Shown here piece after piece: positions 3,418 to 36,591 of a stretch of 48,559 nucleotides of DNA; within the stretch, counting starts at the first letter, position 1, and each line of letters starts with the position of its first letter. Location: NCBI GenBank assembly GCA_021807595.1, contig JAKBCS010000024.1:1-48559 (forward strand), written 5' to 3'. Source of the DNA: Planctomycetota bacterium (GTDB taxonomy: Bacteria > Planctomycetota > Planctomycetia > Gemmatales > Gemmataceae). Under the pieces are notes generated by a model that was not told where the DNA came from, did no database searches, and was given only the letters and a program-made list of their open reading frames with translations. A program made the position numbers and the translations under genes.

Positions 3418-4179
3418 TTATGGCGCATGGAGCCGCAGGCTGAGCCGATAGAGATACGTCGGACCTCCTTCGTCGTTGGCGTCGATGACACCGACATAAT
3501 ACACGCCGTCTGTGGGCAATTTCGCATCGAGAATCGGATCGGAATGGGTCGCGGCATCGTCGTGGGAAGCAAGGATTCGTCCCTCGCCGTCGTAGAGAGT
3601 CACCAGCGCGTCGAGCGTCGATCCGAGCCGGGCCGCGTTGATCTCGACGGTTATCTTCTGCCCCGCCTTGCCCTCGAAACGATACAGATCGACATCCTTG
3701 CTCGCCTCAATGCGGCCGCCGACTTCGCTCGGCAGCGCGATCCTCTGCGCCTGGCGAAAGCCATTATTCGGCTCTTTTTCCTCCACAATCGGCGCGCGCT
3801 CAATGAGCAGCGCGCGCGCCGGACTCTCACCGCTGGGAGTCACGACGGTAACGGTCACGGTGCGCTTGGGATAATCGGGCGGCAGTATCACCTCGGCCTC
3901 GACTTGGGTATCGCCGATAAGCTGGAGAGATTGCGGATTGGGTGCCCCGACTTTGCTTTTTTTGAGCAACTTCACCGTCGCCTTGGGTTCTTGGCAACGC
4001 ACCGCCGTGGCGGTGTCGAGTCGCAGTCCCCGCACGGTCAGCCGGGTCTTGATCCCTGGCGCAATGCCCAACGGAGCGATCGTGGTGATGGTCGGCGGCT
4101 CCGGCTTCTTCGGTTCCGCGCCAAGGACCATCAGCGCGAAGCAAAGCGAACCAGCCGCGATCGTCCTACCATGTCGCAT
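3418..4179 (-). CDS. Secreted IPT/PPC-domain protein of the DUF1501 cassette
   Basis: A 253-residue exported protein with a signal peptide (residues 1-21, ending near VLGAEP). Residues 25-125 resemble an IPT/TIG-like Ig fold (ITTIAPLGIAPGIKTRLTVRG). Residues 135-250 form a bacterial pre-peptidase C-terminal (PPC) domain: EKEPNNGFRQAQRI, then DVDLYRFEGKAGQKITVEI, LDALVTLYD and YYVGVIDAND. PPC domains are non-catalytic beta-sandwiches common on secreted planctomycete proteins. The gene is last in a minus-strand set behind the DUF1549/1553 and DUF1501 genes, 33 bp downstream of DUF1501. It probably acts in the same envelope process; its function is unknown. It converges on the PP2C gene with only 21 bp between the stops. 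Confidence 0.85.
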   Translation of the reverse strand: MRHGRTIAAGSLCFALMVLGAEPKKPEPPTITTIAPLGIAPGIKTRLTVRGLRLDTATAVRCQEPKATVKLLKKSKVGAPNPQSLQLIGDTQVEAEVILPPDYPKRTVTVTVVTPSGESPARALLIERAPIVEEKEPNNGFRQAQRIALPSEVGGRIEASKDVDLYRFEGKAGQKITVEINAARLGSTLDALVTLYDGEGRILASHDDAATHSDPILDAKLPTDGVYYVGVIDANDEGGPTYLYRLSLRLHAP

Positions 4180-4212: not shown

Positions 4213-5538
4213 TCAGGAATAGAGTTCCTTAATGGTTTCACCCTTGTCGAGAATCTCGACGGGGCGACCGTCCGGCGTCACCAACGCCTTGCGCGGATCG
4301 ATGCCCAGGGCCTCGAAGACGGTGCAGGCCACATCGGCAGGCGCAACGGGACGGCGCGAGACAAACGCGCCTTGCTTATCGGTCTGACCGACGACCTGCC
4401 CGCCGCGCACCCCGGCACCGGCGAATAAAAGCGAGGCGGCTTGTCCCCAATGATCGCGGCCTACGTCTTTATTGATCTTCGGCGTGCGGCCAAACTCGCC
4501 GAAAGCCAACACGAGCGTATCGGACAACAGGCCGCGCTCGTGCATGTCGTCGAGCAGGGTCGAGAAGCCGCGATCGAACTCCGGCAACTTCCCACCGAGC
4601 CCATCCCATATTTTGGCGTGATGATCCCATCCGCCGTAGTTCACGGTGATGAAACGCACCCCGCCCTCAACGAGACGCCGGGCGAGCAAACAGCTTTGAC
4701 CGAACGTGCCGCGACCATAGCGATCGCGCAGCCGCTCCGGCTCTTTTTCGATGGCGAACGCGCCGCGTGCCGCCGAGGACAGAATCATCTCCGCCGCCCG
4801 GCGATGGAACTCGTCGTAGGTGCCGATTTGATCGTTGCCCTCGATCTGCCCGGCCAGTCCATCCACCGCTTGCAGCAGCGTTCGACGGCGCTCCGCCCGT
4901 TGGACCGTCAGTTTCTCGGTCGGACTGACATCGCGCACCTTGAAATCCGCCGCGCTGGGATCGCCGGTCTTGAACGATTCGTAGCGCCCGCCGAGGAAAG
5001 CGCTCTTGCCCAGTTCCCAAGTGAATGAGGGATTGCGCGGGATGGAGACGTAGGGCGGCAGTTTGCCGGAGAAACCCAGTTCGTGAGCCGCCACGGCCCC
5101 CATCGCCGGATAGTCGCCGAACGCCGAGCCGAAACGACCGCACAGTACCCAATTCGTCGCCGTCTCGTGGTGGTCGTTGTTGTGCGCCCCGGAACGCACC
5201 AACGTCAGGCGATTCATCGTCTTGGCCATAAGCGGCAGCTTCTCGGTGATGCGCAGACCGGGAACGCACGTCTCGATGGTCGTGTATTTGCCTCGAACCT
5301 CCGGCGGCGCTTCGGGCTTGGGATCGAACGAATCGTGATGCGATAAGCCGCCACCGAGGTAGACGAGCAACACCGACTTCGCCCGCGCCTTGTTTTTGCC
5401 GCCGGCTTGGGCTTCCTGACCCAGCAAACTCGGCAGCGTCAGACTCAGTCCGCCCAACGCGCCCAGACGCAGAAAATCGCGCCGCGATGGTCCATCGCAA
5501 CGCATGCGATTGCGATGGCCGAGAAGTACATCCAACAT
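4213..5538 (-). CDS. DUF1501 secreted protein (sulfatase-like fold), first cassette
   Basis: A 441-residue DUF1501 protein. A twin-arginine signal (SRRDFLRLGALGG) near residues 18-30 suggests folded export. Typical family segments follow: SVLLVYLGGGLSHHDSFDPKPEAP, RSGAHNNDHHE, GGWDHHAKIWDGL, and FGEFGRTPKINKDVGRDHW. The family is related to alkaline-phosphatase/sulfatase folds, but no substrate is established. I chose the ATG at 5538 because AAAGGACC precedes it at correct spacing; an upstream GTG at 5571 lacks a ribosome site. A small 7-bp hairpin (5582-5602) lies between this gene and the DUF1549/1553 gene upstream of it. The His/Asp-rich clusters could bind metal. Confidence 0.92.
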   Translation of the reverse strand: MLDVLLGHRNRMRCDGPSRRDFLRLGALGGLSLTLPSLLGQEAQAGGKNKARAKSVLLVYLGGGLSHHDSFDPKPEAPPEVRGKYTTIETCVPGLRITEKLPLMAKTMNRLTLVRSGAHNNDHHETATNWVLCGRFGSAFGDYPAMGAVAAHELGFSGKLPPYVSIPRNPSFTWELGKSAFLGGRYESFKTGDPSAADFKVRDVSPTEKLTVQRAERRRTLLQAVDGLAGQIEGNDQIGTYDEFHRRAAEMILSSAARGAFAIEKEPERLRDRYGRGTFGQSCLLARRLVEGGVRFITVNYGGWDHHAKIWDGLGGKLPEFDRGFSTLLDDMHERGLLSDTLVLAFGEFGRTPKINKDVGRDHWGQAASLLFAGAGVRGGQVVGQTDKQGAFVSRRPVAPADVACTVFEALGIDPRKALVTPDGRPVEILDKGETIKELYS

Positions 5539-5620
5539 GACACGGTCCTTTCGACGGATACCATCCGTCACTCGACTTTATCGATGGGACGGACGCCCAT
5601 CGTTCGCCCATTGCGTCGTT

Positions 5621-7858
5621 TCAATGATTGAACGAAAACTCCTTCGCGTTCAAAATAGCCCAAAAGAGATCGCGGTACACTTCTTCCCTGTTCCCGGTCT
5701 TGAGCATGAGATGGACGGACGTTCGCTCGTTGGCGGAGGGCAAACGCGACAGCGAGGAGAGCAATAGCTCCTCAATGATTTCGTCGTCGCTGGCCTTGGA
5801 CTTGAGCCAGCGCGTCAGACGGCCATCTCCCGATTGAATCTTCTCCACCACGCTGGAGCCGTTTTGCAGATGCAACAGTTGGGGCATCGTCACCTCGCCG
5901 TTGCGTTCGCAGGCGCACGCCGTCACGCGCTCGGAGCGCCCGAACAGCGATAGGAAATACGACGACAGCCCCGAATCGGGAAGTTGACCGGCACGCAGGC
6001 CGAGTGGATAGCCGGGGAAGGAATCCGGCACGCCGGTACTCTGACTCAGGGCGTCGAGTAGCACTTCGGCAGGGAGTCGGCGCGCGTAGTAGTGCGAATA
6101 GAACTTCCGATCGCCGCGATTGCCCGGCCGGGTCGTCGAGGCCAGTTGATACAGGCGCGAATTGAGGATTTGCCGCATCAAATGCTTGAGGTCGAAACGG
6201 CGTTCGACGAACTCCCGGTTCAAGGCCGACCACAATTCGGGATTGGTCGGCGGATTGCTGGCGCGGAGATCGTCCACCGGCTCGACGAGTCCGACGTCGA
6301 AAAAGTGACGCCACATTCGATTGACCATCGCGCCGGAGAAATACTCATTTTTCGGATCGGTAATCCATCTGGCCAAGGCGATGCGCGGATCGTCGCCGGG
6401 CGCGAGAGACATTGCGGAGCGGTCGAGCGGTTGCGGCTTGAGAAACTGTCCGGTGCGCGGTTGCACGACGCCGATCGGAGTTTTAGCCTCTTTGTCCGCA
6501 GCGTTCTTGCCCAAGATGTGCAAGAGGGTGGGCTTGCCGGACTTCGGCTCGTGGCGTTCCAGGCGAAGGCGCGAGAAGAAAGCGGCAAAGTGAAAGTAAT
6601 CGTCTTGCGTGTACTTCTCCAAAGGGTGATTGTGACACTGCGCGCATCCGATGCGCGTGCCGAGAAGCGCCTGCGCGACCGAGGCGGCGACTTCCGATTT
6701 CTCGGCCTCTCGATGTTCGCCAACGGTGACGATGAAATAACCGACGGCGGGATGGTCGTTGACGCTGCCGTCGGCGGTCAGGACCGCGCGGGCCAGTTCA
6801 TCCCATGGACGATTGGCCGCTACTTCCTTCCTCAACCATTCGTGAAAAGCGCGGACGCCTTTGACGCCGCGAACATCGTGATCGCGCTCACGGCGATTCT
6901 GAAGCAGATCGCTCCATTGCAACGCCCAATAGTCGACGAATTCGGGACGTTCGAGCAGCCGGTCGATGAGCCGTGCCCGGCGATCGGGACGTTGATCGGC
7001 GCGGAACGCCCGTACTTCGGACGGTGTCGGTAAAACACCGAGGGTGTCGAGGAAAACGCGACGGACAAACGCGGCATCGTCGCACAAGTCCGATGGCTCG
7101 ATGTGAAGCTCGCCGAGTTTTCTGAACGCATGTTTGTCGATGAAATTATGGTGTTGCGATAGTCGCGCCGGATCGACGACTTGCTCGAACGGCGACGTGA
7201 CTATGGCCACGGCGACGAGTCCCTGGAAGCTAACCCGGACGGCGGTTTCCCCGTGACGGCGCGCGCGAACTGTGCCGCCGACATCCACCTCGGCCATGCC
7301 CGGATCGTTGGAGTCGAACTTGCACAACCAGGTTACATCCCGCGTCCGTCCATCGCTATATTCGGCCCGCACCTTCAGAGGTTGCTCGTCTCCGGGCCGC
7401 AGTGTGCGCCTCGGCGGTTCGATCGCGAGTCGGAGCGGATGTGGGTCGGCCTTGTATGGCCCCGGCATTCCGGCGCGCAGCCAGGCTAGCAACACGCGAT
7501 GCGGCCTGCTGCCGGACGAGAAAAGCGTGCCTCCTTCGTGTGGTGCCAAGCCGAGCGGCTTGCGCAACAACAGACTCTCCTCCGGCGCGGCAGGATTCAC
7601 GCGCCGACCGTGAAACTCGCGCGTCAGCGAGAGGTAATCCATCTCGGGAGCGTAGCCGCGCAGCGAGAGACGGAAGCCATTCTGACCCGCGCCTTTGCCG
7701 TGACACGCGCCTTGATTGCAGCCCAAGCGCGTAAACAGCGGCATCACGTCGTTCAGGAACGAGGGTACGGCTTCACGGACGGGAGATTCCGCGCGGACGG
7801 TTGCCATCGAAAACAAGACCGTCAGCGAAGCGGCGAAAGGGAGTCGCAAGTGAGTCAC
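5621..7858 (-). CDS. DUF1549/DUF1553 secreted protein with Ig-like domain and CxxCH motif
   Basis: A 745-residue protein starting at GTG 7858. GAGGG lies about 7 nt upstream, and a clean signal peptide (residues 1-23, ending ATVRA) follows. An N-terminal GCNQGACHGKG motif (C-x4-CH) is followed by a BIG2-like Ig domain (about 135-220). Then come DUF1549 (KHAFRKLGELHIEPSD onward), a GCAQCHNHPLEKY motif with a CxxCH, and DUF1553 toward the C-terminus (NRMWRHFFDVGLVEPVDD, RQILNSRLYQ, ending AKEFSFNH). DUF1549 proteins often occur with cytochrome-like domains in planctomycetes; haem binding here is inference. The gene is first of a cassette with DUF1501 and PPC genes. The frame stays open upstream to 8083, but that stretch runs into the tandem repeats and is not counted as coding. 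Confidence 0.9.
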   Translation of the reverse strand: MTHLRLPFAASLTVLFSMATVRAESPVREAVPSFLNDVMPLFTRLGCNQGACHGKGAGQNGFRLSLRGYAPEMDYLSLTREFHGRRVNPAAPEESLLLRKPLGLAPHEGGTLFSSGSRPHRVLLAWLRAGMPGPYKADPHPLRLAIEPPRRTLRPGDEQPLKVRAEYSDGRTRDVTWLCKFDSNDPGMAEVDVGGTVRARRHGETAVRVSFQGLVAVAIVTSPFEQVVDPARLSQHHNFIDKHAFRKLGELHIEPSDLCDDAAFVRRVFLDTLGVLPTPSEVRAFRADQRPDRRARLIDRLLERPEFVDYWALQWSDLLQNRRERDHDVRGVKGVRAFHEWLRKEVAANRPWDELARAVLTADGSVNDHPAVGYFIVTVGEHREAEKSEVAASVAQALLGTRIGCAQCHNHPLEKYTQDDYFHFAAFFSRLRLERHEPKSGKPTLLHILGKNAADKEAKTPIGVVQPRTGQFLKPQPLDRSAMSLAPGDDPRIALARWITDPKNEYFSGAMVNRMWRHFFDVGLVEPVDDLRASNPPTNPELWSALNREFVERRFDLKHLMRQILNSRLYQLASTTRPGNRGDRKFYSHYYARRLPAEVLLDALSQSTGVPDSFPGYPLGLRAGQLPDSGLSSYFLSLFGRSERVTACACERNGEVTMPQLLHLQNGSSVVEKIQSGDGRLTRWLKSKASDDEIIEELLLSSLSRLPSANERTSVHLMLKTGNREEVYRDLFWAILNAKEFSFNH

Positions 7859-35431: not shown

Positions 35432-35565
35432 GAGAAAATATCCCTTACCGCTCGCCGGGTTTTTGAATAAACCTCTCCCCGCCAACGTCCGAATCCCATA
35501 GATCGTATCGGTACGATCTTCCCAAAGAATCTCAGTCTACGGTTTCTAATTGGAGGTTTGTTTTG

Positions 35566-36129
35566 ATGAATGTTCGTTCGATGCTAGGGGCATCCCTGGC
35601 GGCAACGCTGCTCATCGGCGGCGTGCTGGCCGCAGATAGCCTAAAGTCCGGCGTAGCCGTCGGCAAACGGGTCACCCCGTTCAATCCACTCCACGTCACC
35701 GGCAGCGGCAAGGGCGGCAAAGCCTGCTTGGTCTGACGGAACGGTGGTAACCCCGTCGCTGTGATCTTCGCGCGCGAAGTCAACGACGGCTTGACCAGTT
35801 TGGTCAAGAAAATCGACGCCGCTACCGAAAAGAACCGCGATGCCCGCATGGGCAGCTTTGTGGTCTTTTGTAACGACGATGAAGGACTCAAGAAGAAGCT
35901 CGAGACTCTCGCCGACAAAGAAAAGCTCAAACGCACTATCCTCACCATCGACAATCCCGCTGGGCCGGAAGGCTACGACATCGCGAAAGACGCGGATGTC
36001 ACCGTGCTTCTCTACGTCGGGCAAAAAGTCAAGTACAACCATGCCTACAAAAAGGGCGATCTGACGGAGCGCGAAGTCGAGCGCATTCTGTCGGAAGTGC
36101 CCAAGATTTTACCGGAAAAGAAGGACTAG
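35566..36129 (+). CDS. Candidate selenoprotein: secreted protein with C-x-x-U motif encoded by in-frame TGA
   Basis: Reading from ATG 35566 (GGAGG lies 8-9 nt upstream) gives 187 residues with one internal TGA at 35734-35736, codon 57. Residues 1-23 form a clean signal peptide ending VLAAD. The next segment reads SLKSGVAVGKRVTPFNPL, then GKGGKACLV-U57-RNGGNPVAVIFAREV. Cys54 and U57 thus make a C-x-x-U pair, the typical selenocysteine version of a redox C-x-x-C. After it the frame is fully coding, with strands AVIFAREV, GSFVVFCND, KRTILTIDN and VTVLLYV, as in secreted thioredoxin/peroxiredoxin-like proteins. TGA is a normal stop in neighbouring genes, so the code is not reassigned. A SECIS-like hairpin follows, and a T7 intrinsic terminator ends the gene. 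The alternative, a nonsense pseudogene, is less likely because both sides remain intact. Confidence 0.8.
35753..35789 (+). promoter_or_regulatory. SECIS-like RNA hairpin downstream of the in-frame TGA
   Basis: An outer stem CCGTCG/CGACGG (35753-35758 with 35784-35789) leads through a 3x1 internal loop to TGA/TCA pairs (35762-35764 with 35780-35782). A single unpaired T (35765) and a 5-bp stem CTTCG/CGAAG (35766-35770 with 35775-35779) follow, closed by the tetraloop CGCG (35771-35774). The loop begins 34 nt after the TGA, inside the roughly 16-37 nt window described for bacterial SECIS elements. It has a G in its first two positions and a bulged U in the upper stem. A weaker hairpin with a GGTA loop lies closer to the TGA (35735-35757). 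Folded by eye only. Confidence 0.6.
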
Positions 36130-36178
36130 CCAGCGGCGGTTCTCGTCGCGGTAAGACATGAGACTGAGATTCCCATGA

Positions 36179-36212
36179 CGCCGTCCGGCGCGGAGCCGGG
36201 CGGCGTTTTTTT
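36179..36212 (+). terminator. Intrinsic terminator of the candidate selenoprotein gene
   Basis: CGCCGTCCGGC (36179-36189) and GCCGGGCGGCG (36195-36205) pair at 10 of 11 positions, plus a wobble, around the loop GCGGA. Seven T residues (36206-36212) follow directly. This is the clearest rho-independent terminator in the window. It lies 50 bp after the TAG stop and supports that the frame 35566-36129 is expressed as a transcript. Confidence 0.88.
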
Positions 36213-36330
36213 GGGTCGTCGCCCGACGTCTGTACATCCCAAAGCGTCGATCCGACGCGGAGTATTCGCCCTTGTCGATACAACGAGCCGCTTTTTAAGA
36301 CTGTTTCTTAACCGTACAGCGCTACTCCCT

Positions 36331-36455
36331 TCTCCCCCGTACTCAGGGGGAGAGGGGTTGGGGGGTGAGGGGTTTGGGGGAAAAAAGCAGCTTCGACGTC
36401 GTGTTCCGTCGCTCACCCCTCACCCCCGACCCCTCTCCCCTGAGTACAGGGGAGA
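36331..36455. repeat. Large inverted repeat of the CTCCCCTGAGTAC family
   Basis: The left arm (36331-36372), with GTACTCAGGGGGAGAGGGG and GGGGTGAGGGG, is nearly complementary to the right arm (36416-36455), with CCCCTCACCCC, CCCTCTCCCCTGAGTAC and AGGGGAGA. The loop is about 43 nt. Each arm also carries a small dyad of its own. The same core is present at 9523-9586. It fills much of the 462-bp gap between the terminator at 36212 and the MFS transporter gene; I see no supported gene in that gap. The MFS promoter probably lies in 36456-36580. Confidence 0.75.
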
Positions 36456-36591
36456 GGGGGGAAAGTGTCCGCTGCGCTACAGTCGCGCTGTACTGTTAAC
36501 CGCCGCGTAGTTGACATCCAGCGCGCCGGATGATACGAAACACCATCTTCGTATCCGAGTAAACCTGACACGCCTTCGAGGAGTTCCATCG

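Follow-up and report, generated by a model that had tools for sequence, protein, structure and literature searches.

A gene in the window, the 48,559-nt stretch of DNA analyzed here, is very likely an intact selenoprotein gene, whose UGA codon 57 is read as selenocysteine (Sec) in an exported thioredoxin-fold protein. In our reading, SelB would be recruited by a hairpin (hairpin B) lying at roughly twice the distance from the UGA that published models of the bacterial Sec insertion signal (SECIS) allow, and a second hairpin in between (hairpin A) would be looped out. There is no experimental evidence for this reading. The features of the locus are listed in Table 1.

Table 1. Features of the candidate selenoprotein locus, numbered as in the window
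Feature	Position	Strand	Remarks
Shine-Dalgarno-like GGAGG, 5' of ATG 35566	35551..35555	+	Sequence
Candidate selenoprotein gene, exported thioredoxin-fold protein	35566..36129	+	187 aa, C54-L-V-U57
Probable Sec-type signal peptide MNVRSMLGASLAATLLIGGVLAA	35566..35634	+	From sequence; no signal-peptide program behind the call
In-frame TGA, proposed Sec codon 57 (CxxU)	35734..35736	+	Aligned homologues have TGA or TGC
Hairpin A, covarying spacer of 37 nt separating UGA and hairpin B	35753..35789	+	Covariation, window fold
Hairpin B, SECIS-like	35790..35808	+	8-bp stem CUUGACCA/UGGUCAAG, GUU triloop 35798-35800, 61 nt after UGA
Intrinsic-terminator-like stem, then T run	36177..36207	+	13 pairs (13-bp); sequence

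Open reading frame analysis showed that the TGA at codon 57 was the sole interruption between the ATG and the TAG at 36127-36129. The gene start, with its ribosome site, reads CTAATTGGAGGTTTGTTTTGATG, and the TGA lies in the context CLV-U-RNGGNPVAVIFAREV. The N-terminus is hydrophobic and contains an A-x-A motif (GGVLAAD); residues 1-22 were of low confidence in the AlphaFold2 model. A conventional ORF would start at GTG 35761, which removes the CxxU. These were also the claims of the preliminary description, namely a frame broken only by this TGA, with ribosome site, signal peptide and terminator, and a standard gene call that loses the active site. They held, except that the signal peptide is only probable.

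The gene has PQQ-like and MFS-type genes as neighbors, which it shares with one congener (G003); they were not seen beside the gene in more distant relatives, for which short flanks were searched. Positions 36300-36460 of the window contain an interspersed inverted repeat of the CCCTCTCCCC...GGGGAGAGGG type. As a query it matched 143 times in the genome, with many of the matches at contig ends.

A tblastn search of 119 related genomes with the conceptual protein found family relatives in 107 of them. Codon-by-codon inspection of 81 family matches showed only two codons at position 57, TGA (60 matches) and TGC (21 matches), and codon 54 was always Cys (TGC or TGT). Because the 81 matches include loci present twice, they reduce to 74 distinct sequences, 54 with TGA and 20 with TGC. 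The TGA was conserved at this codon in all three congeners and in dozens of genomes throughout the phylum, in independent assemblies from other species and genera. Retention of the codon is thus far beyond chance. A wider search of 294 genomes of the phylum gave matches in 36, and TGA members were found outside the class as well. The invariant columns of the family alignment were C54, C57, G133, P134, A143 and T146.

Selection on the frame was also evident. Within the genus (four members), dN/dS 3' of the TGA was 0.05-0.15; outside the genus it was mostly 0.1-0.3. Most pairs had a lower value 3' than 5' of the TGA. The low ratios past the TGA indicated that the frame is translated beyond it. 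The gene therefore meets the criterion for a bacterial selenoprotein, an in-frame UGA within a conserved coding frame that is aligned with Cys in homologues. The test set beforehand, that homologues should carry Cys or Sec across residue 57, did not refute the C-x-x-U selenoprotein proposed in the preliminary description, nor did the possibility of a sequence error, since the TGA was reproduced in independent assemblies of other species. That proposal was supported at every testable point except the exact enzyme class. In one genome (L076, G041:C12, strand -, 578-1132 and 1243-1794), a TGA copy and a Cys copy lie in tandem and are sisters in the tree. From this tree position we infer a recent duplication with Sec/Cys exchange.

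The most unusual part of the locus, the SECIS-like hairpin B, had been missed in the preliminary description. It was recognized by inspecting the alignment and by codon statistics. In the aligned raw sequences, CUUGACCAGUUUGGUCAAG was found at a fixed distance in the TGA members and not in the Cys members. Codons +19 to +23 were nearly frozen in the TGA members (TTG, ACC/GCC, AGT, TTG/CTG and GTC), with p values as low as 2e-47 relative to codon usage in these genes; the Cys members showed no such freezing.

Hairpin B was present in 53 of the 54 distinct TGA members and in none of the 20 Cys members (Fisher p 4e-17). Its distance from the UGA was 61 nt in 52 members and 58 nt in one. The stem was 5-9 bp long, mostly 8 bp, and was closed by a G[U/G]N triloop. 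An equally long stem appeared in a median of 0.2% of synonymous recodings of the protein sequence. The only TGA member without the hairpin (L079, G065:C17:56130-56648) is nested in the Cys clade beside L107. It is likely a Cys copy that has been mutated to nonsense, misread or misassembled, and it provides a useful negative control.

Thirteen more distant TGA members were fetched after the hairpin pattern was already known. In eleven of them, a stem of 8-9 bp carrying a triloop of the same type was located 61 nt from the UGA, or 64 nt in one with an extra codon. The stem sequence in these 11 was altered with compensatory changes, for example CTTCACC/GGTGAAG and CCTGGCC/GGCCAGG. Counted over 55 sequences, 98.2% of the pairs were standard and five pairs had changed on both sides; for most measures, none of 500 shuffles reached the observed level. 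The element was found in none of the 18 aligned Cys members of this later set, a few of which repeat earlier genomes. The two most divergent TGA members (L193 and L194) had GACCTGC-GGT-GCAGGTC, or a near copy of it, at the canonical 20 nt.

The accepted range for bacterial SECIS elements is 16-37 nt from the UGA to the apical loop, although some elements fail this rule (PMC13188914; bSECISearch model). At 61 nt, the window gene does not meet it. In selD, from the genome that holds the window gene, a GUU triloop closed by a stem of 6 bp lies 33 nt from the UGA. Among 20 stretches fetched for GACCAGT[CT]TGGTC sites, those combining an 8-bp stem with an in-frame TGA at 58-61 nt came from the present family, so no other gene was seen to carry the far element. 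An Rfam search of the region gave no match at E 5, and no useful consensus structure emerged when RNAalifold was applied to the ungapped set. A scan for canonical SECIS elements (16-37 nt, <= -7.5 kcal/mol) was dropped as evidence, as it did not separate TGA from Cys members (20/54 versus 11/20).

Hairpin A also covaries. Double changes were found in 10 of its 13 core pairs, and none of 500 shuffles reached its covariation score (52 sequences). Its lower stem paired in 84% of cells in the TGA members, compared with 51% in the Cys members. It is less specific than hairpin B, because its top is partly encoded by the shared IFAREV motif. When the full 81-nt stretch of the window sequence was folded, the minimum-energy structure was an alternative that opens hairpin B. 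When the first 9-12 nt after the UGA were omitted, as they would be under the ribosome, hairpins A and B formed abutting each other (-27.1 kcal/mol, z -4.3). With the 37 nt of hairpin A left out, the distance from the UGA to the loop of hairpin B is 24 nt. The loop-out role of hairpin A is inferred.

The machinery for Sec insertion was sought in the source genome. selB (649 aa) and selD were present, and selD has its own in-frame TGA (SCAG-U-AGK). No match to selA was obtained with Pfam PF03841 or TIGR00474. In an alignment with congener G003, the first base of the contig bearing selB (C81) falls 4 nt ahead of the start of selA, so that selA is absent from the assembly because the contig ends there. 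selC (tRNA-Sec) was not found in this metagenome-assembled genome (MAG) either by tRNA search or by its flank; the syntenic flank is on contig C179, which diverges from the congener before the tRNA gene and holds no tRNA there. The tRNA-Sec candidates in the source genome were rejected as Ser, Leu, Gly and Tyr tRNAs. A tRNA-Sec with the anticodon TCA was present in all three congeners. The Sec genes expected from the preliminary description were thus partly recovered and their absence did not refute it, but the missing selC remains the weakest point for this individual genome. Reassignment of UGA throughout the genome was excluded, as its selB ends in TGA.

Across genomes, TGA members tracked the machinery. 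They occurred in 46 of the 82 family-bearing genomes with Sec machinery and in 2 of the 25 without (Fisher p 2e-5). This count was made among the 119 genomes, taking at least one Sec-machinery gene over its cut-off as presence; G083 and G106 have only a borderline selA. The two exceptions (G058 and G060) are incomplete assemblies, 88% and 59% complete. Outside the class, tRNA-Sec was over the cut-off in 10 of 11 TGA-member genomes. In G075, of the same order, the family gene comes directly after the tRNA-Sec gene. These two genes are followed by a TlpA/thioredoxin-like gene (L151, G075:C5, 2830-3999) with an in-frame TGA at 3637, which would give HW-U-GPC (UxxC), and with a 7-bp stem and GGUC loop about 31 nt downstream. 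This is likely a second selenoprotein at that locus. Elsewhere, a Cys member (L103, G020:C1405:4084-4617) adjoins selB at 4814-6703.

The AlphaFold2 model of the protein (pLDDT 90.5) showed a thioredoxin fold, which was supported by Foldseek and VIA-align matches. Membership of the fold was met, with Z of 15-17 to ResA, TlpA and peroxiredoxins, in agreement with the link between C-x-x-U and thioredoxin-fold selenoproteins made in the preliminary description. The order of elements in the model was helix 55-59, strand 64-69 and helix 74-89. The C54/U57 pair belongs to, or borders, the short helix 55-59 that precedes the central strand, and there was no Cys at 70-75, after it. Canonical thioredoxin/TlpA oxidoreductases carry the CxxC (or UxxC/CxxU) at the N-terminal end of the helix that follows the central strand, a criterion that this protein therefore fails. 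This placement was inferred from the order of the model elements, not from coordinates. Because the CxxU is not at the canonical active site, catalysis is uncertain. A redox role is inferred. We favor, with about even confidence, an envelope protein acting as a thiol/selenol peroxidase or as a disulfide reductase; the activity is inferred, and the oxidoreductase or peroxidase of the preliminary description likewise remains an inference.

Several other explanations were weighed. The TGA might be a nonsense mutation in a pseudogene, or a base-calling error for TGC. The assembly is a MAG, and L079, with a TGA in the Cys clade and no hairpin, fits such a case. On the other hand, the same TGA occurs in independent assemblies of many genera, purifying selection 3' of it is strong, and the conserved hairpin is UGA-specific. 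The conservation of the TGA refutes this explanation for the window gene, and we regard it as all but excluded. Programmed readthrough with an ordinary amino acid is very unlikely. Readthrough can be stimulated by downstream RNA structures; here the hairpins would stimulate near-cognate decoding of UGA to give a short and a long product without selenium, and the distance between UGA and hairpin is unlike that of standard SECIS elements. However, Cys is the only alternative found at residue 57, the occurrence of UGA members follows that of the Sec machinery, one genome has the gene next to tRNA-Sec, and in the two most divergent members the hairpin is located at the canonical distance. Nor would readthrough give a reason to replace precisely the second Cys of a CxxC.

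Alternatively, hairpin A might itself direct Sec insertion, with its loop about 34-36 nt from the UGA, leaving another role such as ribosome pausing to hairpin B. Hairpin A is at a canonical distance, covaries, and was accepted by the canonical-model scan in some members. Against this, the scan at -7.5 kcal/mol accepted 20/54 UGA and 11/20 Cys members; it fails to tell the two groups apart because the IFAREV motif, which both share, encodes the top of hairpin A. Loop A is also not conserved, whereas hairpin B is UGA-specific and has a GU/GG triloop. We consider this explanation unlikely.

The preferred reading remains Sec insertion directed by hairpin B. UGA codon 57 would be decoded as selenocysteine to give a C-x-x-U redox pair, and hairpin B would recruit SelB carrying Sec-tRNA(Sec). 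Folding out of hairpin A would leave about 24 unpaired or stem nucleotides between the UGA and loop B, inside the accepted window. In the envelope, the protein may reduce a peroxide or a disulfide, with U57 serving as nucleophile and C54 as resolving thiol. Sec insertion itself and the binding of SelB to hairpin B are, like these activities, inferred. Points against this reading are that no selC was found in the MAG, the lack of experimental evidence, a spacing outside the published SECIS model, the 81-nt fold that opens hairpin B, the TGA member without the hairpin, and the position of the CxxU off the canonical site.

A bolder reading, which we think likely, is that the family has a new class of bacterial SECIS. 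Two hairpins would abut in it: one with the apex that binds SelB, at about 61 nt from the UGA, and a covarying spacer whose looping out would bring this apex back to a working distance. This class would occur phylum-wide in one new selenoprotein family, within which the position of the apex has shifted between 20 and 61 nt. Relative to the bacterial SECIS consensus (bSECISearch model, PMC13188914), the loop is at 61 nt (58-64) instead of 16-37 nt, with a separate covarying hairpin in between, while the apex, a GU-type triloop closed by an 8-bp stem, is similar to those known from bacteria.

The protein shares the CxxU, Cys homologues and a redox-type fold with the SELENOW-like, AhpD-like and Prx-like selenoproteins, which have thioredoxin-like folds (PMC13188914, Table 1). 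It differs from them in being exported, in having the CxxU before the central strand, and in lacking a significant NCBIfam or Pfam match. With ResA/TlpA/DsbE and the peroxiredoxins (3gl3, 1st9, 3drn) it shares the overall thioredoxin fold over 135-150 aligned residues, at only 12-16% identity. The ResA-type CxxC is located after the central strand, whereas the family has no Cys there and its sole Cys/Sec pair is in the helix before strand 64-69.

No Pfam or NCBIfam model matched over its curated cut-off (the best E values, about 0.002-0.1, were scattered and unrelated), and there was no significant sequence match to solved structures. None of the 119 prokaryotic selenoprotein families in a 2026 catalogue (PMC13188914) fits. 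Planctomycetes isolated from Porphyra, of the same phylum and with Sec machinery, have been predicted to encode selenoproteins including formate dehydrogenase and formylmethanofuran dehydrogenase (PMC4807772); the main text of that report contains no such thioredoxin-fold family. We found no published description of the family in the open-licence literature searched, and an earlier description elsewhere is not excluded. This is an apparently undescribed exported redox protein family across the planctomycete phylum, very likely encoding selenocysteine.

Models of the bacterial SECIS expect a signal within about 40 nt of the UGA, as do the gene finders based on these models, and this family is outside that limit. 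The limit may explain its absence from protein-family libraries despite its phylum-wide occurrence; planctomycete genes called truncated lose their redox center on annotation. The family also indicates that a thioredoxin fold can carry a redox pair at an unusual place. With near (20 nt), far (61-64 nt) and hairpin-less Cys versions in one family, it provides a natural experiment on how SelB bridges the mRNA and the ribosome, and makes the distance rule directly testable.
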